Shown here in pieces: positions 2,459 to 35,616 of a stretch of 48,701 bases of DNA. Location: positions 1 to 48,701 of the forward strand of contig CALVAY010000013.1 in NCBI GenBank assembly GCA_944325665.1, in the 5' to 3' direction. Numbering within the stretch: position 1 is the first letter of the stretch; every line of letters starts with the position of its first letter. Under the pieces are notes generated by a model. That model was not told the DNA's origin and made no database searches. It saw only the letters and a list, made by a program, of their open reading frames with translations. Source of the stretch: Candidatus Gastranaerophilales bacterium. Its GTDB lineage: Bacteria > Cyanobacteriota > Vampirovibrionia > Gastranaerophilales > Gastranaerophilaceae. The position numbers were made by a program, and so were the translations under genes.

Positions 2459-5400
2459 TTAATTTCCGAAGAATCTTCTCATAATGCTATCATGAGAAAC
2501 CTTGCCAAGACCTGTGGATTTATAGAAAGTGCTTACGGTTTCATTTAACTTAATTGGCTTACCGTCTGCACGAACTAAGCTGTCTCCGACAACTGTATAT
2601 CTTATCGGATAACCGTTAGAATCAACTTCGTCTCTGAATTTTCCACTGTTTCTGTCATACACTTTTCTTTTGATGACTATATCTTTTGCACCTGGGGTAT
2701 GGAAATCATACTCGGCACCGTCTTCGCCTTTTAAGCTGATTGCCTTAACTTCTACGCTTTCTTTGTCTTTGTTAAGCGGTTCATTATAATCAGAAGTCAT
2801 GCCAACATTTGAGAATACCTGAATTACGGATGAACCTTTATCGTCATACTTCAGAAGTGCATAAATACCTTTATTTTCAGGCTGAGGAAGCGAAATAGGC
2901 GTACCGTCGGCAATTGCAGACAAACCGTATTCTTTGTAAAGATTAGCTCTTGCTTGCATTCTGTCATAATATTCTTTTATTTCAGGTTTAAATTCATCCG
3001 AATTGGGGTCAATCCATTCATGGCGAATTAAGTTTCTGTTTGCAACCGAAATATTTTTTGAGGCGTATTCGTAACCTGTTTGACCCAAATTTGTACCTGC
3101 ATAGAAGAAAGGTATGCCTGTAATTGAATTCAATACATCAGATATGCCAATCATTTTGCTTAAAGCAGGGGCCATCATTTCACGGTAAACCGCATCATTT
3201 AAATCTTTAATCTGTCTGTCGCTCAACCAGCTTTTGCCTTCTTTGCTTGCGATATATTGCGCTTGATCCAAGATGTCTTTTAAAGAGATGTCAAAAGGAT
3301 TTTGACCGAAAGATTCGGCTCTTAAGAAGTCTATGTCGGTTTTTCTTTTGAATTTACCGACAGCCAAGTCAGCAATGGCCCTGTTGATAATTTTTAAACT
3401 TTCTTTGTCATCAACTAAGACTTTTTCAAAAGTAGATTTGAACTTATCAGCCACTACAATCGCTTTTGAACTTATAGCATCATAGTTTTTATCACCTTTA
3501 CCCAAAACTCTGTCGCAAGCTTCTTTTGCGTGTTCAATGTCTTTTTGATTTGTTTTGGATGAAGAATTTATGCCAAATCTTGACAAATATGCACCCATAT
3601 CAAGTGCCAAACAATGAAGCGCACGAGGTTTATCGTGGTTATCCACAAACACATGGCTGTGAGTTAAGTATAGCATTGGACCTGATTTTAAATATTCTTG
3701 CATTTTGTGTTTAAATGCGTCCATGTTTGCATATTCGCCTGTAACATCACCGAATTCAAAGTTTTGACCAAATAAATTGGGAACAAGACCAAAGAAGGTA
3801 GAATAATTTGAACCTGTTGTTGCACCTGTTTTTTCATATAACATACGCTCTGCAACATTCGGGTCTGTGTATTTACCCCAGTCTTCTTTTCTGATTTTTT
3901 CTTCTAAATCTGAAACAGCACTTTCTGAAGCATCAGGTCCAAGAATTTGCCTTGCTTCTTTTCTGTATAAAGGAGTATTGTTATAGAACGACCACAAGTC
4001 GGTAACCTCAGCAACAACGTATGCCGAAGGGTTAATTTCTCTTACACGACTTACAAATTCGCCCCAGAATTCACATACATCATCCCAAGACTGTTCAAAT
4101 GTAGTTAAACCGTTACGGTTGCTGGTTAAATCACCAATATCTTTTGCAGCGTCAAAACGCCAGTTCAAACCGCCGCCTGATTTTTTAAGTAATAGTTCAG
4201 CTTGTTTGAAGGATTTTGGAGTGTATTTCATTACATCCAAATCAACAAGTTGGTCTGTAAGCTGCTGTTGTTGACCTTCCGTATATTCGGTGCGAGCAAG
4301 ATTTTTGCTTATTCTCTTTGCAAGTTGTTTTGCTTCGTCTTGAGGATCTTTAGTGCTTAGAACACCTGCTTCTCTTGCTGAGCGTTTTTTAACATCATCC
4401 GATACGGTTAACATACCTTTTGAGTCGATTTGTATTTTATCTTGCGGGAACATTGCTTTAAGTACCGCATAACCGATAATTTTAGGTGTATATAACTCTG
4501 CAAAGCTTTTACCGAAATCGGTAAATTTAACAGCATTATCCACAACATCGTAACCGTTTTGTTCTAAAGACAAAAGGTCGGTGATTTCACTTGAAGGCTC
4601 AATGATATTTTGCGTACTGCAAGCATCAAGCTTTCTTAGTGTTTCTATAACATAGTAGAATATTCTGTTTTTAACCTCAGGATTTTGCATGTATTTTTTA
4701 AACTGAGGATTATTTGTAATTGCTGCAAGACTTGGCGAAACATCAAGTGTTTCGTATCTGAAATCGTCAATGCACTTCTCAACAGTTTGTCTTACAGTCG
4801 CAGCAGCAGTGTTTGAGTCCAATTTTTCCTGATAAGAATAGTTTAATACGGCTTCTATATCTTCCGCACTTAAATCGTTAGCTTTAGCTATTTCTTTAAT
4901 GCCGTTAATATCGCCTCTGGAAAAATATCCTGCTAAATCTTCATAAATTGCGTCATGTGTAAACTGTGTCCAGTATTTAGCAACAGAATACAAATATTCT
5001 CTTGCCTGATCATACCCTTCAAGATCGCCTGCCGAGCTGTTCGGATTTGCAAGGTTCATTTTAACCAAGTCAACGTTACCGTCCCAAAAGTTAGCACCGC
5101 CGGATCTTCCTTTTCTTACTATGTCAAAATTTTCAAAAGAGAAGAAGGAATCTAAATTTTGCAAAATTGTTGTGCCTGAATTCCTTGGGTCTGCATCAGT
5201 AAGCATTTTGTGAGTATAACCGCTAAACTTTTTACGTACTTCTTTGTCTGAATAATCAATCTCAAAGAAGTAGGGCAAAATTGAATCCTGATGAGTTGTA
5301 ATGTCATAATGATCCTTAGGATTAGGATTTGCATAGCTTTCTATGAAATTCTTAGTATCTCTTTGCTGTTCTCTGCTTGCCAATCTGTCGTCAAAGAATT

Positions 5401-6439
5401 GAATATAGCTTGGCTTTTTAGGGTCATAATCCTTAGTGCCCAATGGGTTTATGATTTTATAACCCACATGTTCCATTACTTTAGGGCGATTCGGGTTAAG
5501 AGCGGAAACTTCATCGGGGAAAACACCCAATTTTATTCTTCCGTTGATTTTAAACCAGTGATAATAAGGGGAATTTTTTCCGTATTTTAATACGTTTTGG
5601 AATAATGGGCTTTGGATACTTTGTGAAGTAATTGCACCGTCTGCAATATAACCTTTGCCTTCTCTAAAAAGACCAACTACCGTGTCTTTAAATTTTGAAA
5701 CGGAAGGCATTTGGAAAAATTCTTCACCCCAGTATTTATGAGAAGACTTTGTATCTCTTCCCATATAAGGGTTTGTCATTATGTATCTGTACGGTTCAAT
5801 TTCATCTTTATATTTTAAAATACCGTCAATATCACCGCCCGCTTTATTAAAGTGGTTTCTTACAAAGCTTTTACGATCAATATTTGGCGCACTGTCATAA
5901 GCATCATAAAAAATGTGCAATGCAGGGCCAGTCTTGGGTGTCATACCCATATTATTTGAAAGTACCGTAAATTTTCCGTATTTAGGGTCTTCTACAACAC
6001 TTCCCGGATCGTAACGATAAGCTTGCGTTTTTAGATCATCAAAGGGGCTTATATCGCTTTCTAAATCAATTTTATTAAAAGCTTTATTTGCTTCTAATTT
6101 ATCAACCAATCTAAATCTGTACCCGATGTATTCATATTCTTTCGGGTCGCAAATAATAATATCTCTGGGATAATCGGTAAAGCCGTGTTCTCTTATTTCC
6201 TTAAAAGAATTATCATAGGTAAAGGGTTTGGTAAGCTCTGTATCAACTTCAAAGCCGCCTTTGCCGTCAGGTTTTAGGACGCAAAGCTGTAAAAGAGCGG
6301 TATATTTGCTCTTGTCATAAGGAGGAACATAGAATCTATATACATCCTGTTGATCTTTATCATAAGTCCTTTTTAAACCTTGAAAGGAGGTTTTATTTAA
6401 CTTATCGACTTTTTGTATTTCCGTTGCCGAAATTTTCAC
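2459..6439 (-). CDS. Very large GH13 (alpha-amylase family) protein with F-x-G leader
   Basis: About 1326 residues from a GTG at 6439. That start is preferred because AAGGG lies eight bases upstream and it gives the leader MKISATEI...TSFQG found on other proteins here; an in-frame TTG at 6475 would add 12 residues without a good site. GH13 signatures counted from 6475: region I-like IADGAITSQ (about 278), region II NWRFDAAKD (nucleophile Asp about 774), region III YVVAEVTDLW (acid Glu about 822) and region IV FVDNHDKPRA (Asp about 945). All three catalytic carboxylates are therefore present. The protein is two to three times the usual GH13 length; the roughly 490 residues between regions I and II look like an inserted module with no recognised match. 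Substrate and linkage cannot be told. Last gene of a four-gene minus-strand run, with its own promoter at 6502-6530. Confidence 0.8.
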   Translation of the reverse strand: MKISATEIQKVDKLNKTSFQGLKRTYDKDQQDVYRFYVPPYDKSKYTALLQLCVLKPDGKGGFEVDTELTKPFTYDNSFKEIREHGFTDYPRDIIICDPKEYEYIGYRFRLVDKLEANKAFNKIDLESDISPFDDLKTQAYRYDPGSVVEDPKYGKFTVLSNNMGMTPKTGPALHIFYDAYDSAPNIDRKSFVRNHFNKAGGDIDGILKYKDEIEPYRYIMTNPYMGRDTKSSHKYWGEEFFQMPSVSKFKDTVVGLFREGKGYIADGAITSQSIQSPLFQNVLKYGKNSPYYHWFKINGRIKLGVFPDEVSALNPNRPKVMEHVGYKIINPLGTKDYDPKKPSYIQFFDDRLASREQQRDTKNFIESYANPNPKDHYDITTHQDSILPYFFEIDYSDKEVRKKFSGYTHKMLTDADPRNSGTTILQNLDSFFSFENFDIVRKGRSGGANFWDGNVDLVKMNLANPNSSAGDLEGYDQAREYLYSVAKYWTQFTHDAIYEDLAGYFSRGDINGIKEIAKANDLSAEDIEAVLNYSYQEKLDSNTAAATVRQTVEKCIDDFRYETLDVSPSLAAITNNPQFKKYMQNPEVKNRIFYYVIETLRKLDACSTQNIIEPSSEITDLLSLEQNGYDVVDNAVKFTDFGKSFAELYTPKIIGYAVLKAMFPQDKIQIDSKGMLTVSDDVKKRSAREAGVLSTKDPQDEAKQLAKRISKNLARTEYTEGQQQQLTDQLVDLDVMKYTPKSFKQAELLLKKSGGGLNWRFDAAKDIGDLTSNRNGLTTFEQSWDDVCEFWGEFVSRVREINPSAYVVAEVTDLWSFYNNTPLYRKEARQILGPDASESAVSDLEEKIRKEDWGKYTDPNVAERMLYEKTGATTGSNYSTFFGLVPNLFGQNFEFGDVTGEYANMDAFKHKMQEYLKSGPMLYLTHSHVFVDNHDKPRALHCLALDMGAYLSRFGINSSSKTNQKDIEHAKEACDRVLGKGDKNYDAISSKAIVVADKFKSTFEKVLVDDKESLKIINRAIADLAVGKFKRKTDIDFLRAESFGQNPFDISLKDILDQAQYIASKEGKSWLSDRQIKDLNDAVYREMMAPALSKMIGISDVLNSITGIPFFYAGTNLGQTGYEYASKNISVANRNLIRHEWIDPNSDEFKPEIKEYYDRMQARANLYKEYGLSAIADGTPISLPQPENKGIYALLKYDDKGSSVIQVFSNVGMTSDYNEPLNKDKESVEVKAISLKGEDGAEYDFHTPGAKDIVIKRKVYDRNSGKFRDEVDSNGYPIRYTVVGDSLVRADGKPIKLNETVSTFYKSTGLGKVSHDSIMRRFFGN

Positions 6440-6501
6440 AATGTTTACCCTTATTATTCCCTTTAACTTTATCAAAACATCTAAATCAATAAAATTGCTT
6501 A

Positions 6502-6530
6502 AATATACAACTTATTTTTACAGATGTTAA
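6502..6530 (-). promoter_or_regulatory. Sigma-70 promoter for the large GH13 gene
   Basis: On the minus strand TTAACA (6530-6525), exactly 17 bases, TATATT (6507-6502). Each box matches consensus at five of six positions. Predicted transcription start near 6495, leaving a leader of about 55 bases before the GTG at 6439. It would let the last gene be expressed separately from the upstream three. Confidence 0.65.
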
Positions 6531-6554
6531 AAATTTAAACGAAAACTAACGCAA

Positions 6555-8333
6555 TTAAAATTGTTGCTGCATTACATTTTCAGACTTAGAATATTTTTCT
6601 AAATCAGGTGTGTTAATCTCAAATATGTGAGCTCTTAATGGTCCCAAATCAACCGTTAATACATCATTATCTTTTTGGAAGTAACTTGGCTGAGAATATT
6701 CGGGAACCAAATTTTCTAATTTTTGTTCGGCATCAAACCCGGGAATTTGAATTTTAGCGCTTGATCTTACGTTTGCATTTCTGTTTGCAACAACAAGGAG
6801 AGTTTTACCGTCTTTGTGTCTTGCGTAAGAGATAATATCAGGGTTATTATTTTCAAGTTTTATGAAAGAACCGTGAGTTAATATATCCTTATATTCAGGT
6901 TTTACATCGCCGCTTTTAAGTGCAAGAGAAGATTTAATAAACTCTTGAATTTGCGGGAAATTACCGCCGGGTTTTCTTGAATAGTTGAAAATATCAAGTC
7001 TGCCTGTGTGAACAGTACATTCGTCATTATCAGTTTGAGTTTGTGCTACTTTAGCGTGGTCATAAGGATATAAGAAATAATCACCTGTTTGAACACCGTC
7101 AATAAAGTAAGTGTTTACCATTGGCAATGTTGACTGAATTGCAGTTGTAAACATAACCCAAGGAGCACCGCCAAAATACATCGGGCTTTGGTCGTCATGG
7201 GTTGTCATTGAACCGATTAAAGACTTAGGACCTTCCATTCTGTTAGACATGTCAATATTTTCTTTCATATATTTGAACAGGTCATCTGCCTTTGTCCATT
7301 GGTTGAAAATGTGGAATTGTCCGTAATATGAATCAAAACCGCCTCTTAATTGGTCTTCAGGTCTGTCAAAATTCATATTGAGCTGAGGTGAAGCATCTTC
7401 ATAAGTGTATGATTCTGCTAACCAGCCAAATTGAGGGTCTTTGGAGTGAGAATAAGGAATAATTACATTCCAAAATTCAATCGGTTTCGCACGGGACACA
7501 TCGGCTCTGATACCGTCAATTCCAAGCTCCATACATGCATCAACATATTTTTTGTGCATATCTAAAAGTTTCGGATTCAACTTTCTTTTTGCTTCGTCAT
7601 CCCACACTCTAAACATTCTGATGTCTTGCCAACCTTGAGGAGTTTTATCATCCCCTGTCTTTTCTTTAGCCATTAAATCAGGGTTTTTTCTTGCAAAGTC
7701 TAAACTTGCACAAGAAGGAAGGTCAAGCATAACTGAAATATTACGCTTGTGGCATTCATCGATAAACATTTTAAAGTGATCCCAAGCACTACCTTCGGTA
7801 TTAGGATCTTTTAAGTTTGGGTCAACGGCTAATTTGCCGTCTTCTTCAATAAATCTGTCAGGGGCGTACAATGAACCTGCTGTACCCATTGCAAGAGTTT
7901 TACCTGCCGGATGAATAGGCAAGATGTGCAATGTATTTATGCCCATGTCTTTAATTTCATCAAGTCTTTCAATGGCATTTATAAAATTGCCGGATTCTTC
8001 GCCAATTTGGATTAATCCGTTGCCATCAAGATCTTTTGCATTCATAGTTCTTGGAATAACACCCAAGATATTTGCTCTGTTGTTTACAAACATATCTTTT
8101 AAGTGGTTATTCCAAACACCGTTTTGCATAGCGCCGACATCTGAAATTGGCTGCATAGCATTTGGTTTCAATATTTGGCTTGATTGTTTAATTATATATT
8201 TTGATAAAAGCGGATTAAAAGGAGCTTTCTCTTCCGCACTTTGTTGTACTTCAGGTGCGCTTTGAGCTTTTGGAGCCGCTGTTTTATTTTGGTACATAAG
8301 GTAAGGGTTTTGTGAAATATTATTTAACTGCAT
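6555..8333 (-). CDS. GH13 (alpha-amylase family) glycoside hydrolase or transglycosylase
   Basis: 592 residues. After a low-complexity, Gln/Ala/Pro-rich start (about 1-45) comes a TIM barrel with region I VMLDLPSCAS (about 202), region II GIDGIRADVSRAK (nucleophile Asp about 276), region III WLAESYTY (acid Glu about 307) and region IV TTHDDQSP (Asp about 379). A C-terminal beta domain follows (HKDGKTLLVVANRN). All catalytic residues are present, so an active alpha-glucan enzyme is likely; hydrolase or transferase cannot be decided. No signal peptide, so probably cytoplasmic. AGGAGGGG lies five bases before the ATG, inside the end of the upstream membrane-protein gene, with a 14-base overlap that suggests coupled translation. 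Confidence 0.88.
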   Translation of the reverse strand: MQLNNISQNPYLMYQNKTAAPKAQSAPEVQQSAEEKAPFNPLLSKYIIKQSSQILKPNAMQPISDVGAMQNGVWNNHLKDMFVNNRANILGVIPRTMNAKDLDGNGLIQIGEESGNFINAIERLDEIKDMGINTLHILPIHPAGKTLAMGTAGSLYAPDRFIEEDGKLAVDPNLKDPNTEGSAWDHFKMFIDECHKRNISVMLDLPSCASLDFARKNPDLMAKEKTGDDKTPQGWQDIRMFRVWDDEAKRKLNPKLLDMHKKYVDACMELGIDGIRADVSRAKPIEFWNVIIPYSHSKDPQFGWLAESYTYEDASPQLNMNFDRPEDQLRGGFDSYYGQFHIFNQWTKADDLFKYMKENIDMSNRMEGPKSLIGSMTTHDDQSPMYFGGAPWVMFTTAIQSTLPMVNTYFIDGVQTGDYFLYPYDHAKVAQTQTDNDECTVHTGRLDIFNYSRKPGGNFPQIQEFIKSSLALKSGDVKPEYKDILTHGSFIKLENNNPDIISYARHKDGKTLLVVANRNANVRSSAKIQIPGFDAEQKLENLVPEYSQPSYFQKDNDVLTVDLGPLRAHIFEINTPDLEKYSKSENVMQQQF

Positions 8334-10809
8334 TGTCCCCTCCTTTTTGCTCTTTATGTTTTAGGTATAAATGTTCGTTTTTGGCTTTTCCAAAGAACAT
8401 TTGAGACAGCAAAGTAATGCCGACCACACCGATTGCAAATCCGCCGAACATTCTCATCCAGTGTCTGTCATTGAATTTTTGGCTTGCTGTTTCCATAAAT
8501 AACTCGTTTAGAGATTTACCTATCATTGAATATTGAGTTTTTTGCGAAACATCTACCTTACCTTGAAGTGTATGTCCTTGTCTTGCTAAGTCAACAATCT
8601 GACTGTAAATACGGTAGATATTTTCTCTTGTTTTAAGCAATGAATCATATAATGCAGGGTTGCAATGTTTAAGTGTATCAGCATCAAGAGTTGATACAAG
8701 TTCATTTGCTTCATTTTTGTATTGACCGAACAACAATTCAAGAACTTTTGTAGAGTCAACACCGTTACCGCTTAAGTAACATTTATTAGCTATATCATTC
8801 ATTGTTGAATCATATAGAACTTTACGGCAAGTTTGAATTACATCTTTAATGGCATTTTTATCACCGCCAAGACTTTCCCATTGTTTTGCTAAAGTACCGT
8901 CAGCAATTCTCTTTTCTAAGTCAGCTGCAAGAATGTATCTGTGTCCTGTTGATTTTATACCGGCAGTTTTTTCTTCGATAAACAAATCAACAACTCTTCT
9001 GTATAATGGAGTTCTGCCTGATTTTCCGTTTTGTACACTTTGTTTTAAGAAGCCAAGCAAATTGTCATTTTCAACATCTTCAACCCCTTTGAATGCATCA
9101 TCGGCAGCCCTTCTGATTTTATCCAAAATCTTACCCAATGTTTTAGATTCAAATTTAACTTGTTTTTCACTCAAAGTTGAAATGTACTCGCCGTAACGAC
9201 CTTCATTTCCTGCAATTTTAGAAAGCGAGCTTACAAGATATTTTTGAGATTGCTCTGCTGAATTTCTTGCTTGTTTTAAATCTTTAGTTTTTGGTTTAAG
9301 TTGAGCCATAAATGCATTCAACGAATCCAAGTGGATGCCTGTATGAACAGATTCATATTTTTGTCCTACAAGTCCGTTTATAAAGTCTGAAATAACGCTC
9401 AATCTTGCAGCAATCGGTCTTGTTTGCTTTTGATAAACATCTCCGAAAGAAGCGCAGTAATCGCTGACTACTTTACCATCTATCGTACCTTCAATCTTGT
9501 AGCCTTCAATTAAGCGTGCAAATTTATCTCTTAAAGCTGCTTTAGTCATAGCGCCTTCGGTAGAATCAAGAGCTTCAAGAAGTTCGCCCAAAGGTACAAC
9601 TCTTTCGGTTTCAGGTAATTTGTCGATATGAGCAAATTTTTGACGAAGTGCCATGTAAACTTTTCTGTCAGCAGAATTATCTCTTCCCTGAAGGCTTCTT
9701 ACGATAAGTTTCTTGTCTCCTTGTTCTGCAAAAAGCTTATCCATTTCCTCAACAAGCTTACCGTAGTTAACCATGGTAGTGCCTTTTTTAGCTTCCCTTA
9801 GGTCAGAATATGTTCTCATCATATTATCTCTTATTTGTAGAGCCGTACTTCTTAGCTCAAAAATAAGATTTGAATCATCAATGTCTTTTTTATCGTTTAT
9901 TACTCTAAACGGATCCAAAATATGAGAAACGTTGTTGAAAAATACTTTATCAGGTTCTTTTGTTCTTCTTGTTGTAATAACCGCCAAATCTCTTGCCGCT
10001 TGAGAGTCAAAATTTGCATCTTTCATTTTGGCTTGAATCATGCTTGGCAATTTATCGACATCAGCGGTAATTTTGTTGTATTGATGATTAATCAAGCCTT
10101 TTGTAATGCCTCTTTCGGCAACGTTACACATCATTGAAGTTAAAAGCGGGCTGAAACCTGCCGTTAACATCCACAAAGTATTACCTTGAAGAGCAATGGT
10201 ACGCATTTTTTCTTTGATTAGCTCTTCTCTGTCTTTTACATCTTTCGGTACACCCAGTTTGTCGCCAATTTTGTTTAATTCATCATTTGACCACAAATCC
10301 CAAGGTTGATATTGGTTATCTTGGAAGAAGTATTTTTTTCTGCCTTGAGAATCGACATATTTTTGACGGAAATCAAAACCGAAACGGTGTTTCATAGGTT
10401 CAGAAATAAGAACTTTCGGCCACATAGCCATTGAAGCAAAAAATGCACCAAAGCCTAAAAATTCCATTAAACCTTTCGTACCTGTTCCACGTCTTGTGAA
10501 AAGATAAGAAGCAATGCCAAGACCGCCTAACTTCATACCAAGGTCGTTAAATCTTCCCAATTGATTATCGTTAGATTCGCCTTTAGTAAGCGCTTTGCCT
10601 AATTCAACAATGTCTTTGCCTGTATCTGCGGCAGATATGACCAATGAAGAAAGAGGGTTGCGACTTTTTAGTAAAAATCCTCTTGGAGTTTGGGGTGCAA
10701 CAGAATTAGCATTCTGAACAAAAGCTCTATAAACGTCTTGCTCTGCAATTTCTTTGCGAAGCTGTGCGTATTGATTATTTAGAAATGAGGAGTTAACGTT
10801 GTTATTCAT
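8320..10809 (-). CDS. Large membrane protein of unknown function, operon partner of GH13
   Basis: 829 residues, not recognised. Hydrophobic segments lie near 98-112 (LGGLGIASYLF), 118-135 (FGAFFASMAMWPKVL), 212-230 (LWMLTAGFSPLLTSMM) and 790-810 (FGGFAIGVVGITLLSQMFFG). The roughly 550 residues between the third and fourth are polar, helical and charge-rich. The last 20 residues are charged (KHKEQKGGDNAVK). The plan of two helices, a loop containing WDLW and NKIGDKLG, one helix, long insert, one helix repeats that of the upstream 352-residue protein, so the two are probably distant paralogues. Start and stop codons of the pair overlap as TAATG; the downstream GH13 gene overlaps its end by 14 bases. 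A role as membrane scaffold or anchor for the glucan enzymes is a guess from context. Confidence 0.75.
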   Translation of the reverse strand: MNNNVNSSFLNNQYAQLRKEIAEQDVYRAFVQNANSVAPQTPRGFLLKSRNPLSSLVISAADTGKDIVELGKALTKGESNDNQLGRFNDLGMKLGGLGIASYLFTRRGTGTKGLMEFLGFGAFFASMAMWPKVLISEPMKHRFGFDFRQKYVDSQGRKKYFFQDNQYQPWDLWSNDELNKIGDKLGVPKDVKDREELIKEKMRTIALQGNTLWMLTAGFSPLLTSMMCNVAERGITKGLINHQYNKITADVDKLPSMIQAKMKDANFDSQAARDLAVITTRRTKEPDKVFFNNVSHILDPFRVINDKKDIDDSNLIFELRSTALQIRDNMMRTYSDLREAKKGTTMVNYGKLVEEMDKLFAEQGDKKLIVRSLQGRDNSADRKVYMALRQKFAHIDKLPETERVVPLGELLEALDSTEGAMTKAALRDKFARLIEGYKIEGTIDGKVVSDYCASFGDVYQKQTRPIAARLSVISDFINGLVGQKYESVHTGIHLDSLNAFMAQLKPKTKDLKQARNSAEQSQKYLVSSLSKIAGNEGRYGEYISTLSEKQVKFESKTLGKILDKIRRAADDAFKGVEDVENDNLLGFLKQSVQNGKSGRTPLYRRVVDLFIEEKTAGIKSTGHRYILAADLEKRIADGTLAKQWESLGGDKNAIKDVIQTCRKVLYDSTMNDIANKCYLSGNGVDSTKVLELLFGQYKNEANELVSTLDADTLKHCNPALYDSLLKTRENIYRIYSQIVDLARQGHTLQGKVDVSQKTQYSMIGKSLNELFMETASQKFNDRHWMRMFGGFAIGVVGITLLSQMFFGKAKNEHLYLKHKEQKGGDNAVK

Positions 10810-11867
10810 TAGTGCACCTCATATTCTTTATTTGTGTCAATTTGTGTATCCGGCAAGTTTTTACCCACTTTAAAGCCTTTTGTAGCGTTCATAATACCTA
10901 AAATTGTTGAAGCCAAAGCACCAAAGATAAGAACTCTGCCAACAACCTTTGAGCTGCGTGTAAATCTCTTACTGTTTCCGTTGTATAAATCAACAAAACT
11001 GTCTTTTAATTTAGAGCCTAAACCGGTAGCAAAAGCTGTTACTTTCTTGGTAAATTTAGCATCTCTCGGGATTGCAATTTTTGTTTCGAAAGGTTCTTGA
11101 GCAGCAAGTGCAACACCAAGACCTGCCCAAATAAATGAGCTGATTGACTTAGCAGCATTTGATTTTACAATTAATTCTTTAACTTTGGGTTGAACTGTTT
11201 GATCAGGTGAGTTAAGAGGCTCTTTGAAGCCCATTTTTTTGGCAATTTTATCATACCAAATGTATCTGTTGCCTTGTTTTTCACCTTGTTTGTTAATTAA
11301 GTCCCAACGTGGGAAATCGGCACTTTCAAATACCCTGTGGTATTCGATTGCCGTTAAGTCTCTATCACCCTTGTGCTCAGGGAATTCGGTAACAACTTTT
11401 TGATAAGGCATCTCAAGGTCAACACCTGTTTTTAGCTCGATACCTTTATTCATTAATTTTGGGCCTAACCATTTGCCAACGGCATACATAACAACACCTG
11501 CCGCCATTTTTCTTCCCGAAATACCGGCAAAAGCTCTGTCAGGCATTCTAAAACCTTTGTTTGCAGCATTAAATAGGGCTATTAACATGCCTGAACCGAC
11601 AAGATTAGGCACAAGCCCCAAAGACAAAAATTCGTAAAAATTGGAGTTGCGAGAACCGTTCATTCCTTTAGGTGCGTAAGTAAAAACGTCTTTTACAAGT
11701 TTATCCGCAACAATTCTTGCCCCTGTGATAGGAGTTTTTTTGATAATTTGATCACTTGTACTGGATAACTCCTTGTCAGCATGCGATTTCTTGTAGAAAG
11801 CGTTTTGTGGAATTTCAATTTTACTGTTACCTGTTTGCACCTTTTTGTTAGACTCCAAAACTAACAC
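10809..11867 (-). CDS. Membrane protein of unknown function, first gene of GH13 operon
   Basis: 352 residues from a GTG at 11867; no ribosome site precedes that codon. A second in-frame GTG ten codons in (near 11840) has GGAG twelve bases upstream and is an alternative start. Four hydrophobic segments: about 82-103 (LVPNLVGSGMLIALFNAA), 115-135 (KMAAGVVMYAVGKWLGPKLM), 243-260 (SISSFIWAGLGVALAA) and 313-335 (VLIFGALASTILGIM). The loop between the second and third carries DFPRWDL and WYDKIAKKMGF, matching QPWDLW and NKIGDKLGV in the next gene. No enzyme motif is seen. It heads a run with one membrane paralogue and two GH13 proteins, with end-to-start contacts that suggest one mRNA. Function unknown. 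Confidence 0.72.
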   Translation of the reverse strand: MLVLESNKKVQTGNSKIEIPQNAFYKKSHADKELSSTSDQIIKKTPITGARIVADKLVKDVFTYAPKGMNGSRNSNFYEFLSLGLVPNLVGSGMLIALFNAANKGFRMPDRAFAGISGRKMAAGVVMYAVGKWLGPKLMNKGIELKTGVDLEMPYQKVVTEFPEHKGDRDLTAIEYHRVFESADFPRWDLINKQGEKQGNRYIWYDKIAKKMGFKEPLNSPDQTVQPKVKELIVKSNAAKSISSFIWAGLGVALAAQEPFETKIAIPRDAKFTKKVTAFATGLGSKLKDSFVDLYNGNSKRFTRSSKVVGRVLIFGALASTILGIMNATKGFKVGKNLPDTQIDTNKEYEVH

Positions 11868-12007: not shown

Positions 12008-14353
12008 ATGGACACATTTAATCTTCAATTTAGTAATGAGATTATAAATAAAATAATAAATTTTTACAACTCGACAAATGAGCTACTACTTCTGTGTGGT
12101 TTTTCAGGTTGCTCAAAAAGTGAAATTTTAAACAAATCTCTTGAAAATTTGGACGAAAATACGCTTGTATTCAAGCATTTATGTTTTGAGCACACTACAA
12201 TTGACGACTTTTTACTCAACTTTTACGACTCTTTTCGAAAATTTTCACTTGAAAGAAAAGTAAGCCTTAAAAAGAGCATGGGCGAAACTTTTGCAAATAA
12301 AGTCAGCTTTTATTTTAAAAATATAGATAAAAAATGTGTTATTGTGGTTGACAATTACGAGCTTGTATCGGACAACATAGAAATTTTAAACCTTTTGGCT
12401 CACATCGCAAGCTTTGAAAATACAAAACTTGTGCTTGTTTCAACAGAAAAAAACATAGACTTTTTCATTCGTCAAAATTTATCTAATGAAATAATCGAAA
12501 TTCAACCAAACAGCTACGAAGATTTTTGCTCAAAAGTTAACCTTGAGATTATCGACGCCGATGAAAATACCCTAAAAGAGCTTTACGAAGTTACACAAGG
12601 GCATGAACTGTATCTCAGGATGTTATTAAGATACGCAAAAACAACGGGCGTGAGCCTTTTTGACTTTCTTGAAGAATTTAAAAAAAGAAAGATGGAATTT
12701 GGCGATTTCATTATCTCAAAAGTAATTTCCCTTGTCCCGAGCGCATATTTTAGTTTCTTGAAAAATTTATGCGTTTACAACCATGCCATAAGTATCGATT
12801 TTATAAGAAACTATTCGCTTGGCGATGTTTCTCAAATTGAATACCTTGAAAAAAATCTTTTAATTTCAAAAGTTGATAATGAAATAATTCTGAAGAAATT
12901 TTTCAAACAACATTTTATAAACACTCTATCCGTACAGGAAAAATTTAAAATCTATAACAAGCTTATTGAAATATATGAAGAAGAGCTTTCAAAAAGCCCT
13001 AAGGACAGACTTTTGAGATTATCTCGAGAAAGTATTCGAAAACAAATCGAAATGTTTGAAAGAAATATCCCGAAAATAAAAAATCAAACCGTAATCGGGC
13101 AAAATAACTTCTCTTACATCTCGCTTGCTCAAGGAAGCTCAAATCCTTGGTTTGACAAAAAAGAAACGGACAGAAAAAAACGCTTTTTGGAAAAGAAAAA
13201 AGAATTTTCAAAAGAAGAAAAGGTAAATTTCATAAGCGAAGAAGACCAATTAATGCTTAAGGAATTCAGACGAAGAAAATTTGAAAGCGAAGCTAAAAAA
13301 CAGCAGGAAAACAAAGAATTTGGCTTTATAGAAAACCTTAAGTTGGCTTATGAATATGAAAGAGATTACAAATACCCTCAAGCGCTTGAACTTTTGGCAA
13401 AATTAAAACCTCAAGCACCTGATGATATTGTTAAAACAGATATTTTAGAACATCTTGCCCACATAAGCGAAAAATTAAACAACTTTGAAATTGCGCTTGA
13501 ATACTATACTCAAATGGGCAGCTTGTGCATTATAAATAAAGAATTTGAAAAATATTACGAAGTCATTCTTCAAATGGCAAATTTATACAAACATTTGTAC
13601 AGATTTCAAAGTGCAAAAGAAGAATATCTGAAAATAATTAACGCAAAAAATCCTCTCAAGCTTTCGACAAAAACCTCTGCCTATCTTGGCTTAGGGGATA
13701 TTTTTGAAAGCGAAAACAATATTGAAGAGGCTCTAAAATACTACACGCTTGCAAAAGAGTTAATACCGGATGATGATGTTGTTCAAAGCTGTGAAGTAAG
13801 CTTTAAAACTGCGGTTTTATACGACGATATGCAAGATTTTGAACATGCAATCGAATTTTATCAAAAAAACATTGAAACAAGTCAAAATTCAAAAGAAAAT
13901 AAATACCTTTCACAAAGCTATGTTAACCTTGGTTTAATATACTCTTACGAAGGTGATTTTGAAAATGCCGCAAAATATCTTAAACTGGCATACGACAAAG
14001 ATTTAGAACAAAAAAATCTTACAGGGGTATATTTTAGTGCAAGAGAACTTTCAAAACTGTATGAAGGCGACAACATCGAGCTTGCAATTGAATATTTAAA
14101 AGAAGCCCTAAATTGTGCCAAAGAAATGCAAGACGGTTTTAAACTTGCCTACGCATATTTAGAACTTGGAGATTTATACTATAATTTCTCTCAAAATGAC
14201 GCAGCGCTTGAGTGTTACTTTGAAGCAAGGCAGGCGCTTGGCGAAAATATTCTTGATGAAAACAAAGAAATTATCGAGCGAAGAATTAAAGATATGAAAA
14301 TAAAAATGTTTGAAGAAAATTTCAGAAAAATTGAGGAAAGATATGTTCAGTAA
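12008..14353 (+). CDS. STAND-like P-loop NTPase with TPR C-terminus
   Basis: 781 residues. Residues 1-330 look like an AAA/STAND NTPase: a Walker A-like GFSGCSKSE (about 32-40; Cys-Ser in place of the usual Gly) and a Walker B-like CVIVVDNYE (about 115). A charged linker (about 370-440) leads to a run of tetratricopeptide-type helical pairs (about 440-765; for example YPQALELLAKLKP, EEALKYYTLAKEL, ENAAKYLKLAYDK). Such proteins usually act as nucleotide-dependent switches with a TPR protein-binding platform; the partner is unknown. No effector domain precedes the NTPase, so a defence role is not supported. The start overlaps no ribosome site and sits six bases after a -10 box. It overlaps rsmG by 11 bases. 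Confidence 0.75.
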   Translation: MDTFNLQFSNEIINKIINFYNSTNELLLLCGFSGCSKSEILNKSLENLDENTLVFKHLCFEHTTIDDFLLNFYDSFRKFSLERKVSLKKSMGETFANKVSFYFKNIDKKCVIVVDNYELVSDNIEILNLLAHIASFENTKLVLVSTEKNIDFFIRQNLSNEIIEIQPNSYEDFCSKVNLEIIDADENTLKELYEVTQGHELYLRMLLRYAKTTGVSLFDFLEEFKKRKMEFGDFIISKVISLVPSAYFSFLKNLCVYNHAISIDFIRNYSLGDVSQIEYLEKNLLISKVDNEIILKKFFKQHFINTLSVQEKFKIYNKLIEIYEEELSKSPKDRLLRLSRESIRKQIEMFERNIPKIKNQTVIGQNNFSYISLAQGSSNPWFDKKETDRKKRFLEKKKEFSKEEKVNFISEEDQLMLKEFRRRKFESEAKKQQENKEFGFIENLKLAYEYERDYKYPQALELLAKLKPQAPDDIVKTDILEHLAHISEKLNNFEIALEYYTQMGSLCIINKEFEKYYEVILQMANLYKHLYRFQSAKEEYLKIINAKNPLKLSTKTSAYLGLGDIFESENNIEEALKYYTLAKELIPDDDVVQSCEVSFKTAVLYDDMQDFEHAIEFYQKNIETSQNSKENKYLSQSYVNLGLIYSYEGDFENAAKYLKLAYDKDLEQKNLTGVYFSARELSKLYEGDNIELAIEYLKEALNCAKEMQDGFKLAYAYLELGDLYYNFSQNDAALECYFEARQALGENILDENKEIIERRIKDMKIKMFEENFRKIEERYVQ

Positions 14354-14972
14354 GGAACAAAGAGAGATTTTAAAAGAAAATTTTAACTTGGAAACAGATA
14401 AGACAACACTTGAAAAATTTGAAAAATGGCACGAGCTGTTTCTTGATTATAATTCTCATACTAATCTGATGAGCAAAAATGACACCAAATTGCTTTTTGA
14501 AAAGCATATTTTTGACTCACTTGCAATTTTAAAGTGGGAAGAATTTGACCCGACAAAAAAACAAAAAATTTTAGATGTAGGTACAGGCGGCGGCTTCCCC
14601 TCGGTTATTCTTGCGCTTTTTTTCCCGAACTTGGAAATTGTTGCAAATGATTCTCGAATGAAAAAAATAAATTTTATAATCGAGGCAAAAGACAAGCTTG
14701 ATATAGAAAATTTAAAAATCTCATACGCAAGAGCAGAGGATTTAGAACCTCTTAACTGCGATATAGTGATTTCTCGTGCAGTCGGAACAATAAAAGATGT
14801 TTTAAGACTTTCAAAAAAACACATAAAGCAAGGCGGATATTTTGTTATATACAAAGCAAAAACTCTAAAAGACGAGCTTTTAGAGGCAAAAATTGAAAAT
14901 GCAAAAATTGTTGACTACACACTTCCTCTAAAAGAAGATTACACAAGGCATTTAGCGATTATTAAAACTTAA
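14343..14972 (+). CDS. rsmG: 16S rRNA (guanine-N7)-methyltransferase RsmG
   Basis: Methylates N7 of G527 of 16S rRNA using S-adenosylmethionine. The ATG at 14343 is chosen because GAGG lies seven bases upstream, inside the previous gene; a TTG at 14310 would add eleven residues that read MKKISEKLRKD and lacks support. From this start the protein is 209 residues, normal for the family. SAM-binding motif ILDVGTGGGFPSVILALFFP at about 70-88, then DSRMKKINFI and ISRAVGTIKDVL, both typical of RsmG. The gene overlaps the NTPase-TPR gene by 11 bases, which suggests coupled translation, and its 3' end overlaps the convergent small gene by 11 bases. Confidence 0.95.
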   Translation: MFSKEQREILKENFNLETDKTTLEKFEKWHELFLDYNSHTNLMSKNDTKLLFEKHIFDSLAILKWEEFDPTKKQKILDVGTGGGFPSVILALFFPNLEIVANDSRMKKINFIIEAKDKLDIENLKISYARAEDLEPLNCDIVISRAVGTIKDVLRLSKKHIKQGGYFVIYKAKTLKDELLEAKIENAKIVDYTLPLKEDYTRHLAIIKT

Positions 14973-15342
14973 AACGCTTTGCTTCCTTGCTTCTATCTAC
15001 ATAGCAACCGCCGCCGCCCATCATGGCATCGGCCCAATCCTCTCCTTCTTCATATTCTACATATGCTTTCTTGCAGGCTTCCAAAAGTAAATAGTCCTGA
15101 GCCTGAGCAAATTCCTTCCCTACGCATCTAACGTCATAAAGGACGCTATGTAATTTGTCTTGGGGTGAAGGAAAACTTTTGCCTGTTTTTTCATCATAAA
15201 TTGAACTTACATATTCTGAAGTGCCGGGTTCAATTTCTTGAAGCATTTCTAACACTTCTTGTGCATTTTTTCTAAATTCTTCTCTTTCCTTAACCCCTGT
15301 AAAATATGTTTTATTTGTACTTGAAATATTCGCTATTTGCAT
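14962..15342 (-). CDS. Small protein of unknown function with F-x-G leader
   Basis: 126 residues, not recognised. The leader MQIANISSTNKTYFTGVKER has the same layout as several other proteins in this window (hydrophilic start, Phe-x-Gly near residue 14-16, then basic residues). The rest is acidic and helical with a Gly run GGGG near residue 110 and no transmembrane helix or signal peptide. AAGGAG lies seven bases before the ATG. Convergent with rsmG, with an 11-base overlap of the coding ends. A cytoplasmic accessory role is only a guess. Confidence 0.75.
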   Translation of the reverse strand: MQIANISSTNKTYFTGVKEREEFRKNAQEVLEMLQEIEPGTSEYVSSIYDEKTGKSFPSPQDKLHSVLYDVRCVGKEFAQAQDYLLLEACKKAYVEYEEGEDWADAMMGGGGCYVDRSKEAKRFKF

Positions 15343-19014: not shown

Positions 19015-20859
19015 TTAATGACCTGCAACGAAAATGTTACCGCGAACGCTTTGTACATCGTATTTTTCGCTGAAAGAATCAAGAGCTTCTCTTGCACGAG
19101 GAGAATCATATACAATACCTGTTTCAAGGTCTGTATTTTTTGCGAAATCTTCCAATACAAACTCGGGCATACCGTAGTATTTGTTGTCAGGTGTTGTACC
19201 GTGCAATCTAACTTCGTTTGCAACGTCTTTGATTAATTTCAAGTATGCTTCTGCTGTACCGATATCATCCCATACGGCAGGTTTTCCGCCTTTTGCTTCA
19301 AGAGGTACTGTATAGACTTTCATTTTTCTGCCGTTTTCATCAAGCAATTTACCTTCATTTGCAAGTTGAACTATCTTAGGCATAACGTTTCCGCCTAAAC
19401 CTGTATCTTCAGGTGTTAAGATACCTTGAGCCATAAGAACTTTTTGTGCTTGTTTAGATAAGAAATACAAACCGGGGTTAGCTAAGAATCTGCTTTCATC
19501 AGAAGGATCAAGGGCAGTTTGAACTTTTCTGAATTCATCCATAGCTTTGTCATAGTCGCCGCGTTGAGTAAAGTCGTTAGGCATTGGAGCATCTGAAGTA
19601 TATTTTGGTTTTTCCAAGAATTCTCTGATTTGAAGATTGCCTTCGTCGTCTTGTTTAATACCCAACAAACCGAAAGATTTAGCTCTTTCAGGGCTTACAG
19701 GATAGTAAGGAATAACAAGAGCTGCATCAGGCAATGTTTTTAGTGCGTTATAAACACGGCTTACATCTGCGTTTGTGAAAATATCAGCGTTTAAGATGAT
19801 AGAATCACGGTCGTTTCTTACTAAATCACGTTTCAAACCTTCGCTTATTGCGCCGCCGTCTGTTTTATATCTTGAAACATAGTAAACGCCGTCGCCTTCA
19901 GGGATTTCATGGTTTTGGCTTAGGTAGATAACATCATCAGATTCATCGCCTCTCAAAACGCCTGCTGAAGCAGCAAGGTTAAGAGTTGTACCGATAATTC
20001 TGTATCTGTCATCTGTCGGAAGTTTACCTGACGGTTTATTTTCATGTTCTCTTGTAATGTTGAAAAATCTTTCGCCGAAACCGCCTGCGGGGATAATAAC
20101 TGTCGGGTCATTTGCTTCAACAACATCAGCATAGTCGCCTCTGATTGCTTCTCTTTGAAGACCTGAAGCCATATATGAATCAACAGCGTTAATTGTTCTG
20201 GGTTCTTTGTTTAAAGTTGTGATAACTGTTCTACCTGTGAATGAAATATCTTTATGGCCTTGACCTGGTGTCGGTTCGTATGAGCCGGGCATTTTAAATT
20301 CAAAACCATCACCAACAAGTTCTGAACCTGCAAACATTTTAATAGCTTTACCGTTTAAAGATTCATCTTTCACGGTAATTTCAGGCATAAATTTACCTTG
20401 TTTGTATGTAACAACAGGCATTTCTGCTCTACCGCGTTCTACACGACCAACAAAGATTGTGTTTCCTTTGTCGTTTGTTATGGTAAATTTATCTCTGTCG
20501 CCTTCAATTTCTTTTGTAACGTTCAAGCCGGCAGCGTTCAATTTTTCTGAACCTTGAGGCATTTTCTTTAAAGGTAAGTCAATATCTTCAGTAAGTGATA
20601 GTAAATTTTGAATTCTTATTTCTTTAGGTGTAATAATTGATTTTTCCAAATCACTTAATTCAACATTGCCTGCAAAATTAACTGTTTTTGCAGTTTGGAT
20701 ACCGTTTAGCGCTTGATAAGCACTTGCTAATTTTGCAGCTTGAGTTTTTGAACCTTCAAAATTAACATTTGATTGAGCTTTAATCGGCATTGATGTACCG
20801 TTTGTTTTTTGTGCCTGATTTTTAACATTTACAGGGCTTAGAGTTACTTTTTGTATCAT
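19015..20859 (-). CDS. Sugar-1-phosphate nucleotidyltransferase (GlgC-like) with long N-terminal extension
   Basis: 614 residues. The C-terminal part (about 250-560) is a nucleotidyltransferase of the ADP-glucose/mannose-1-P type: VIIPAGGFGERF (about 254-265, a variant of the GGxGTRL nucleotide loop), LNADIF (about 355), FLEKPKY, NPGLYFLSKQ and WDDIGTAEAYL (about 530). The first 240 residues are extra. They carry two F-x-G motifs (NVNFEGSK near 33 and TVNFAGN near 60) and a beta-rich region with no family I recognise. With the neighbouring GH13 and GH57 genes a role in glycogen-like polymer synthesis is likely but the nucleotide and sugar are unproven. AAAGGAAA precedes the ATG; a strong terminator follows. 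Confidence 0.82.
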   Translation of the reverse strand: MIQKVTLSPVNVKNQAQKTNGTSMPIKAQSNVNFEGSKTQAAKLASAYQALNGIQTAKTVNFAGNVELSDLEKSIITPKEIRIQNLLSLTEDIDLPLKKMPQGSEKLNAAGLNVTKEIEGDRDKFTITNDKGNTIFVGRVERGRAEMPVVTYKQGKFMPEITVKDESLNGKAIKMFAGSELVGDGFEFKMPGSYEPTPGQGHKDISFTGRTVITTLNKEPRTINAVDSYMASGLQREAIRGDYADVVEANDPTVIIPAGGFGERFFNITREHENKPSGKLPTDDRYRIIGTTLNLAASAGVLRGDESDDVIYLSQNHEIPEGDGVYYVSRYKTDGGAISEGLKRDLVRNDRDSIILNADIFTNADVSRVYNALKTLPDAALVIPYYPVSPERAKSFGLLGIKQDDEGNLQIREFLEKPKYTSDAPMPNDFTQRGDYDKAMDEFRKVQTALDPSDESRFLANPGLYFLSKQAQKVLMAQGILTPEDTGLGGNVMPKIVQLANEGKLLDENGRKMKVYTVPLEAKGGKPAVWDDIGTAEAYLKLIKDVANEVRLHGTTPDNKYYGMPEFVLEDFAKNTDLETGIVYDSPRAREALDSFSEKYDVQSVRGNIFVAGH

Positions 20860-20999: not shown

Positions 21000-21665
21000 T
21001 TATTCAACAACACCCGTACTTAGGACTTTTTTCAATTCGCTCTTAATTATTTCATGAATTTCCATTTTGTCCTTCATACCGTCAATTTCAATAAATCCAT
21101 ATTCTTTTTGAAGTTTTTTATACTCTTCAAGACATCTTTTTTGATAAATTTCAAAACTCTTGTAAATATCCGTCGAAAGACCTATATCTCTGCCTGACTC
21201 AAAATAATCAAGCCCGCCTGAGGCTATAAGTCTTTTAATTAACTTATCGGGCGGCATTTTAAGGTAGAAAACCAAATCCGGCTCTGGGGCAAATTCGTAT
21301 AATTTTTTAACCCAGTTAATATCGTGTCCTCGAACCGAATCTCGAACATAGGCAGTATAGACATATCTGTCTAAAAGCACCACAAAACCTGCCTTTAGAG
21401 CAGGGATTATGACATTTTCCAATCTGTCGGCATAATCTGCCGCATAAAGAAGGGAAAAAGTCGTTGTATTTAACAAATTTTTCTCTTTTGCCTCGTTAAT
21501 TAAACCTGAAATAAGCCTTGAGGTTTTCCACTCTGACACAACGCAGCCAAAGCATTCGCCCTGTACAAAGTCTTTTAGCATATTTACCTGTGTAGATTTT
21601 CCTGCACCGTCCGTGCCTTCAATTACAACCAAAAGCCCGTCATAGCCGTGTTTTTTATATGCCAT
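21000..21665 (-). CDS. Thymidylate-kinase-like P-loop kinase (second of tandem pair)
   Basis: About 221 residues from the ATG at 21665 (MAYKKHG), which has GAGG seven bases upstream inside the preceding gene; a start five codons earlier is possible. P-loop VIEGTDGAGKSTQ (about 14-26), Tmk-type DRYVYTAYVRD (about 115-125) and a lid region GLDYFESGRDIGLS. The fold and motif order are those of dTMP kinase, but the usual AYQ after the DR motif is replaced by a T-A-x-x-R-D pattern, so the true phosphate acceptor is uncertain. It overlaps its upstream paralogue by 11 bases; the two are surely co-translated. Confidence 0.8.
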   Translation of the reverse strand: MAYKKHGYDGLLVVIEGTDGAGKSTQVNMLKDFVQGECFGCVVSEWKTSRLISGLINEAKEKNLLNTTTFSLLYAADYADRLENVIIPALKAGFVVLLDRYVYTAYVRDSVRGHDINWVKKLYEFAPEPDLVFYLKMPPDKLIKRLIASGGLDYFESGRDIGLSTDIYKSFEIYQKRCLEEYKKLQKEYGFIEIDGMKDKMEIHEIIKSELKKVLSTGVVE

Positions 21666-22374
21666 TTTGTGCCTCATCAATTTCTATACCGCGTTTTTTC
21701 AAAACATCGGTTACAATTTTTCTGAAATATTCCTGTTTTTTATGAATAGACTCGGTCGCGTCAATTTTTACAAGATTATACTCATCAACCATATTGTTAT
21801 ACTGCTCAATTACGCGGTTTTGAAACAGTACATAACTTTTGTAAGGGTTATTTGACAGTTTTAAATCCATACCCGCTTCGTAAAATTTCGGCTGACGGTT
21901 TGTGCAAATTCTCTCCAGCGACAACTTTGCACTTACATCAAAATAAACTGCCAAATCGGGTTTAATTGCAAAACCGTACATATTTCTAACCCACTTTGGA
22001 TCAACCTCACGAGCAACATCACGAGCAAAAGCGGTATAGACATATCTGTCCGCAAGGACTATAAAACCGGCTTTAAGAGCAGGAATGATAGTTCTTTCCA
22101 ACCTGTCGGCAAAGTCAACAGCATGCAAAAGAGAAAAAGTTCTGCCCGATAAAAGATTTTTCTTTTTGGCACGTTTTGTGGTTTGCGAAATCAACTCCGA
22201 GGAATTCCAAGTTGTCAAAATAACATCTAACTTTTTAGATTTTAGCCAACTGTACAATAAGTCAAGCTGGGTACTTTTACCCGAACCGTCAATTCCTTCA
22301 ACACAAATCAGCACGCCTTGCAGTTTATGGTCTTTTGAAAATCTTAACATTTTCTGCCTTGTTTTTTTTGTCAT
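21655..22374 (-). CDS. Thymidylate-kinase-like P-loop kinase (first of tandem pair)
   Basis: 239 residues. P-loop CVEGIDGSGKSTQ (about 22-34), DRYVYTAFARD (about 123-133), and a lid with RQPKFYEAGMDLKLSNNPY. It shares the whole domain with the next gene, including the DRYVYTA-x-x-RD motif and the Y-F/E-x-G-x-D-x-x-LS lid, so the pair arose by duplication. Canonical dTMP kinase lies at about 205-215 residues. Both copies keep the P-loop lysine and the DR pair, so both may be active, or they may form a heterodimer. Whether either is the cell's Tmk cannot be decided here. Confidence 0.8.
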   Translation of the reverse strand: MTKKTRQKMLRFSKDHKLQGVLICVEGIDGSGKSTQLDLLYSWLKSKKLDVILTTWNSSELISQTTKRAKKKNLLSGRTFSLLHAVDFADRLERTIIPALKAGFIVLADRYVYTAFARDVAREVDPKWVRNMYGFAIKPDLAVYFDVSAKLSLERICTNRQPKFYEAGMDLKLSNNPYKSYVLFQNRVIEQYNNMVDEYNLVKIDATESIHKKQEYFRKIVTDVLKKRGIEIDEAQNGI

Positions 22375-32717: not shown

Positions 32718-32959
32718 ACAAAAAAAGAAAATGCCAAGCCTGCAAGGCAATTAAAGATGCAGATTTAATGCATAAAATAACAAAAGAGGCAAAAACAAAT
32801 AAACTCTTTTTAAACCCTGATTCAAAAATTTTGGGAAGAAGTGCTTATGTGTGCAAGAATCCCGAATGCATAAAAATTTTGCTCAAAAAGAAACTGCTTA
32901 AAGGCGCACTCAAAGTTCAAGACACAACTGAAATCGAAGATATTTTAAGAACCGTTTAA
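32714..32959 (+). CDS. YlxR (DUF448)-family RNA-binding protein
   Basis: 81 residues. Matches the YlxR pattern: KCQACKAIKDADLMHKI at the start (Cys-x-x-Cys in the R-x-C-x-x-C region), a central GRSAYVCKNPECI and a Lys-rich end KKKLLKGALKV. In most bacteria this gene lies between nusA and infB; in Bacillus the protein (RnpM) is reported to bind RNase P RNA. Here it sits behind a methyltransferase, overlapping it by four bases, away from the usual operon. Its 3' end overlaps the convergent GH57 gene by 15 bases. Confidence 0.85.
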   Translation: MNKKRKCQACKAIKDADLMHKITKEAKTNKLFLNPDSKILGRSAYVCKNPECIKILLKKKLLKGALKVQDTTEIEDILRTV

Positions 32960-35304: not shown

Positions 35305-35616
35305 TTATTTTTTATTTGAATCTGTCGCAATATCGTGCATTTCTTTAACTGCAAAACCGCCTGCAACTACTGCTGTAAGTGCGGTTGCTGCAATCTTAAC
35401 ACCTCTTGCACCTTTGTTATTTTTAACAAAATTATCTATTGCAACTTTTGCATTTCTAAAGAAATTTACAATTCCGTTTTTTGCTCTTCCGCCTGTTCTT
35501 TTAACTGTTTCACCGGCATTATGAAGAACTTCTTTTCTGCCTGAGAAAGAAACATTATTTCTTGGAACTTGAGGGCGTCCCAATGTTGAACTTGCATTTA
35601 TTGCTGAAATATTCAT
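35305..35616 (-). CDS. Small membrane-associated protein with F-x-G leader
   Basis: 103 residues, not recognised. Leader MNISAINASSTLGRP then NNVSFSGRKE (Phe-x-Gly at about 24-26 followed by basic residues). A Lys/Arg/Asn-rich middle (KRTGGRAKNGIVNFFRNAK) leads to one hydrophobic helix (IAATALTAVVAGGFAVKEM, about 75-93) at the end. The tail-anchored plan suggests a peripheral or single-pass membrane protein. GGAAAGGA precedes the ATG. Lies 21 bases after the next gene in the same direction. Confidence 0.7.
   Translation of the reverse strand: MNISAINASSTLGRPQVPRNNVSFSGRKEVLHNAGETVKRTGGRAKNGIVNFFRNAKVAIDNFVKNNKGARGVKIAATALTAVVAGGFAVKEMHDIATDSNKK

Follow-up and report, generated by a model that had tools for sequence, protein, structure and literature searches.

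Membrane-type proteins associated with divergent GH13 enzymes in gut bacteria related to the cyanobacteria

Introduction

What do two related membrane-type proteins do next to two GH13 enzymes? The question is raised by a locus in a stretch of 48,701 nucleotides from Candidatus Gastranaerophilales bacterium, which was analysed as a whole and is referred to here as the window. The hosts of such loci are animal-gut bacteria and close non-photosynthetic relatives of the cyanobacteria, and the organisation of their carbohydrate metabolism is little known. Earlier genome papers report generic amylases and glycoside hydrolases only (PMC3787301, PMC4451040), and the accessible part of a 2024 review on prokaryotic alpha-glucan enzymes mentions neither Melainabacteria nor the terms ‘transmembrane’ and ‘membrane-bound’ (PMC11046441). 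A first-pass annotation of the window did not recognise the locus as a known system, and the literature searched, with most subscription journals outside coverage, gave us no account of it either.

Results

Layout of the locus

The ORF listing contains the proposed run of four minus-strand genes at positions 2459-11867, named here mpS, mpL, GHa and GHb (Table 1). As described in the first-pass annotation, mpS and mpL are joined by TAATG, with the junction at 10809, and mpL and GHa overlap by 14 bases (8320-8333). The accompanying claim that all four genes touch or overlap holds for these three; GHb is set apart by a gap of about 115 bp after GHa. Its start, GTG 6439, was chosen by comparison with relatives (MKIS...). 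A search of the 1.65 Mb genome to which the window belongs, using mpS, led to a single place.

Table 1 Genes of the locus in the window, with positions, strand and description.
Gene	Positions	Strand	Description
mpS	10809..11867	-	ORF, 352 aa, small membrane-type protein; start at GTG 11867 or GTG 11840
mpL	8320..10809	-	ORF, 829 aa, larger mpS paralogue with helical insert
GHa	6555..8333	-	divergent GH13 enzyme of 592 aa; no signal peptide
GHb	2459..6439	-	divergent GH13 protein of about 1326 aa; large barrel insertions; start by comparison

A further gene lies on either side of the run. The one beside mpS (12008-14353) is a divergent STAND-ATPase/TPR-like gene, retained in those genera in which GHb has likewise remained adjacent (L035, L036, L050, L069). 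On the other side, convergent with GHb, is the gene of a small, probably exported protein to which no family was assigned (1801-2457); besides the window's genus, one other has retained it (L036). Elsewhere in the window we observed a tandem, overlapping pair of thymidylate-kinase-like genes (21000-21680 and 21655-22374) and, about 21 kb from the operon, a GH57-type glucan enzyme (32945-35209).

Three of the genes form a conserved unit

We compared 45 neighbourhoods, namely 40 fetched from many genera in four families, four named contigs and the window itself. In all of them mpS, mpL and GHa were adjacent, in constant order and on a single strand; as the neighbourhoods had been picked for the presence of mpS, this count measures linkage to mpS and not class-wide frequency. 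The gap between mpS and mpL was mostly -4 to +1, and mpL mostly overlapped GHa. The genes flanking the three vary between genera, so that the unit stays intact amid changing surroundings. Constant order and strand together with changing flanks outweigh operon-like spacing alone as support for a unit, and on the basis of order and strand the linkage exceeds chance. Conservation of the neighbourhood across the class had been proposed as a check at the outset, and the core genes passed it; of the original idea that all four genes form one unit, the three-gene core stands, while GHb adjoins it only in some genera.

Relatives of mpS were detected in 108 of 194 class genomes with a single-sequence search. 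A profile search of 386 genomes of the phylum found them in 173, none of which lies outside the class. The pair of mpS and mpL is carried by the window's group of gut bacteria and by another lineage within that class.

In three genomes, all of which belong to the second family, mpL and GHa are encoded in one open frame (G026, 1002 codons; G002, 1036; G014, 1090). The GHa parts of these fusions form one clade in the tree, which makes a single fusion, shared by the three genomes, the likely history. The fusion is the best evidence, and strong evidence, that mpL and GHa work together, and it also lends support to the earlier suggestion that the glucan enzymes may act at a membrane. G026 carries the mpS-mpL-GHa unit in two copies, one fused and one not, in addition to an intact GHb and a degenerate GHb copy.

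mpS and mpL are related proteins of no recognised family

A profile-profile comparison over 173 columns (P 3.9e-12) bears out the relationship between mpS and mpL, and the shared motifs noted in the first pass are visible in both as PWDL/PRWDL followed by a KI..K.G segment. Among further conserved features are, for mpS, KGLxG..NFYEFL and GxVPY..GS. Those of mpL comprise ME..G...F..MA.WP, Y.DS.GR...F.D.QY.P.DL and a segment with K.GDRLGVP. The roughly 550 extra residues ascribed to mpL between hydrophobic segments 3 and 4 correspond to a helical insert at about residues 233-782; this is true of the window's family, and the mpL of distant relatives is far shorter, with 508-625 aa for the whole protein.

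Four helices had been proposed for each protein. Helix 4 is clearly hydrophobic in both and is the one helix that most members (77% for mpS, 71% for mpL) have above the usual cut-off for hydropathy, whereas segment 1 of mpL and segment 2 of mpS are doubtful. Segments 1 and 4 of mpS and segments 2-4 of mpL had favourable octanol scores in 96-100% of members, while helix 1 of mpL failed this test in 79% of members. Hydropathy thus does not support four clear membrane helices, and the description as four-helix membrane proteins is weaker than first stated and no more than plausible. Lys and Arg are abundant throughout the stretches between the helices, so that no topology stands out and a positive-inside analysis is uninformative.

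Sequence searches of mpS and mpL against Pfam, NCBIfam and the PDB returned no meaningful match, and the matches in one search were mostly designed helical proteins. AF2 models were mostly helical and of moderate confidence (mpS, pLDDT 77 and pTM 0.73; mpL, pLDDT 76 and pTM 0.61). Foldseek found no convincing fold for them in the PDB, with best E-values of 0.12 for mpS and 0.33 for mpL. The Z-scores obtained with VIA were 5.1 and 7.9, respectively, the top value being against designed helical proteins, and a viral library yielded nothing. Membership of the pair in a known unrelated family, which would have spoken against the initial proposal, was looked for by sequence in Pfam, NCBIfam and the PDB and by fold in the PDB and the viral library, and no family there matched convincingly. 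The absence of fold matches does not prove a new fold.

GHa, a putative glucan or maltosyl transferase

Profile searches and residue counts agree that GHa is a GH13 protein with its catalytic residues in place, as had been claimed. Its profile matches were 4gkl (E 6.6e-30), 1gju (E 2.4e-27) and the GlgE structure 3zss (E 1.5e-18), while the single sequence gave only a match below cut-off against Pfam. The Asp nucleophile, the Glu acid/base, the transition-state Asp and the Arg of region II that characterise GH13 are present as D278, E307, D380 and R276 in all 45 members, in which R276, D278, E307, H379, D380 and D381 are invariant. In region I, DxPSC takes the place of DxxxNH, with Ser-Cys for Asn-His and the Ser kept in 45/45. 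The aligned maltosyltransferase of T. maritima likewise has no Asn-His in region I; the motif is usual and not universal, and its replacement in GHa does not exclude a GH13 assignment. A putative activity as glucan or maltosyl transferase is more likely than that of a plain amylase.

By inspection, GHa and GHb show no signal peptide and have polar N-termini, in line with the first-pass annotation; that of GHa is a polar linker. Most genomes of the window's family encode a GHa paralogue at a separate locus. A signal-peptide-like start was seen by inspection in 9/9 of these relatives, which form one clade in the tree, and in the own-genome copy (L154:7945-9492). The missing signal peptide of GHa is meaningful because a paralogue that has one occurs elsewhere in the same genomes, and this supports the view that, in an inside/outside pair, GHa may be the enzyme that stays within the cell. 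The paralogues (L154:7945-9492, L141-L150) measure about 515 aa and sometimes lie beside a ROK-type sugar kinase.

GHb is a second divergent GH13 protein with variable position

GHb also matches GH13 structures in profile searches (1sma, E 4.1e-25; 1j0h, E 1.4e-22), whereas its single sequence had no match at all in Pfam. Its catalytic residues R763, D765, E813 and D938 are kept in 33 of 34 members, as expected from the initial description of GHb as a GH13 protein with full catalytic residues. Region I is DGAFTSQG, without His, and about 440-630 residues separate it from region II. GHb is probably a neopullulanase-like enzyme. The exception among the 34 is the second copy of G026 (L120:5655-9665), in which every catalytic residue is replaced and the length is kept; in its syntenic counterpart in G031 (L119) the catalytic residues are intact. 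A Pfam alpha-amylase scan of the window's genome found other GH13 genes and neither GHa nor GHb, so that standard annotation would miss or under-describe both.

All 34 members of GHb share an N-terminal F-x-[GA] motif with an invariant F. Polar starts ending in F-x-G also occur on unrelated proteins in the window (14962-15342, 19015-20859, 35305-35616 and 42632-45298). The idea that such starts are a genome-wide signal gained weak support, with slight enrichment over the genome sample (9/265 versus 4/265 and 1/265).

GHb was found in 102 of 105 class genomes with mpL and in none of 83 without it, a count over 188 genomes that ignores one mpL match (E 5e-5) and seven GHb matches (E about 1e-5 to 1e-3). 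The three mpL-bearing genomes without GHb are G088, G186 and G081, the last of which is 56% complete. A strong GHa match was present in the same 105 genomes. As presence follows a few deep lineages, the co-distribution of GHb and mpL amounts to few independent events. In the window's genus and two others, GHb adjoins the unit and runs in the same direction, and in much of the second family it is a neighbour in divergent orientation. Elsewhere it lies far from the unit, and in most genera it is not adjacent. The GHb tree separates the window's family from the other two families, which indicates that GHb came to adjoin the unit, or ceased to do so, on more than one occasion. A conserved operon around GHb in other genera was rejected, as its neighbours vary (for example AdoHcy hydrolase, Opp permease and alanine racemase).

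Glucan and sugar context

Loci of the second family have an MFS carrier of the GPH_sucrose type (TIGR01301, E 2e-48) beside GHb in 8/8 cases in which that side of GHb is visible, and the window's genome has a 40% homologue of this carrier beside a GAPDH-like gene. The same genome encodes GlgA (E 7e-129), a GH57 branching enzyme, two GlgX-like proteins and one TreS-like protein. Given GlgA, the branching enzyme and the GlgX-like pair, alpha-glucan is probably made there, and the notion that GHa and GHb are the only glycogen enzymes of the genome was discarded in view of these genes. Strong GlgA matches occurred in all genomes of the window's family that were searched and in most system-bearing genomes of the other two families; families without the mpS-mpL-GHa system had weak matches only. 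In G002 and G014, the fused system is present and a strong GlgA match is absent, so that a strict need of the system for GlgA was rejected; in these two genomes it does not depend on glycogen from GlgA. Judging from this gene content, alpha-glucan is the likely substrate class, either as stored glycogen or as imported maltodextrin.

Discussion

The reading we prefer, and hold to be slightly likelier right than wrong, is that mpS and mpL constitute a scaffold in or on the membrane which holds GHa, and probably GHb, for the processing of alpha-glucan in the cytoplasm. Its basis is the gene order, the homology of mpS and mpL, the mpL-GHa fusion, the catalytic residues and the co-distribution. The two membrane-type proteins would assemble into a hetero-oligomer in or on the cytoplasmic membrane. 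This scaffold would hold GHa, and probably GHb, on its cytoplasmic side, as a complex of separate chains outside the fused lineage. The enzymes held there may remodel or break down alpha-1,4-glucans, which could derive from the cell's own glycogen or from maltodextrins entering via the sucrose/maltose-type carrier. Against this reading, three instead of four spanning helices in mpL would place the fused GHa outside; several hydrophobic segments are weak, and the scattered position of GHb in most genera also speaks against it, as do the even spread of Lys/Arg, the fused systems of G002 and G014 that lack a strong GlgA match and the small number of independent events behind the co-distribution.

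The main rival is that mpS and mpL are the helical, partly hairpin-inserted coat of a glucan granule or of a membrane-bounded glucan body, with GHa and GHb as resident enzymes. The modest hydropathy and the positive charge in all segments would fit such a coat, as would the long helical insert of mpL, the strong GlgA matches throughout the window's family and the absence of signal peptides from both enzymes. The favourable octanol scores of most segments and the persistence of the fused system in G002 and G014 do not, and we regard a coat as unlikely. A bolder version, in which mpS and mpL build an intracellular membrane structure or granule coat that stores alpha-glucan for processing by GHa and GHb, and thus a class-specific glucan organelle, is distinctly doubtful.

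A little less probable still is that maltodextrins or glucan are translocated through mpS and mpL, and that GHa and GHb trim the material that passes in or out, such as an alpha-glucan destined for export or for a capsule. Two homologous membrane-type subunits adjoining sugar enzymes, and a GHa paralogue that probably acts outside, would be consistent with transport; the helices are few and weak, however, no transporter family or fold was matched, and the second family already has a separate sugar carrier beside GHb. We give even less credence to GHb, and perhaps GHa, being glucan-binding or structural subunits instead of catalysts: the very large insertions of GHb and the degenerate copy of G026 point that way, whereas the catalytic residues are retained in nearly all GHb and in every GHa sequence. 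The broadly vertical trees would fit a cluster that is a mere neighbourhood passed on by descent, with no function shared by its genes. This is very improbable, since the three genes stay together while their flanks turn over between genera, and the fusion already disfavours it.

The association of mpS and mpL with GHa points to an undescribed glucose-polymer machine at a membrane. If the scaffold reading is true, it would represent a new arrangement of bacterial glucan metabolism, in which unknown membrane-type proteins are coupled to GH13 enzymes. The unit adds two protein families, two divergent GH13 groups and concrete genes for testing, and the natural mpL-GHa fusions offer a ready single-chain construct for biochemistry.

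By sequence comparison, GHa and GHb appear as divergent GH13 groups that are neither GlgE nor neopullulanase as tested here. GHa shares with the GlgE/Thermotoga maltosyltransferase group its profile matches, the catalytic D, E and D and, with the T. maritima enzyme, the replaced Asn-His of region I. It gave no match to the GlgE N-terminal domain or a curated GlgE model (Pfam and NCBIfam, E<=1) and, in contrast to that group, is tied to two membrane-type proteins. GHb has its best profile matches in the neopullulanase/maltogenic amylase group, but lacks the compact A domain and the standard region I and matches no curated model. GH13 enzymes held at a membrane are also known from gut bacteria, in which SusG and the cell-surface amylases of Gram-positive species are exported and face outwards; GHa and GHb differ from these in having neither signal peptide nor lipobox, and their partners are unrelated. 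Finally, the SLC3 heavy chains rBAT and 4F2hc of animals join a GH13-like domain to a membrane segment, with one N-terminal helix and the domain facing outwards, whereas in the mpL-GHa fusions the GH13 domain comes after the last mpL helix.
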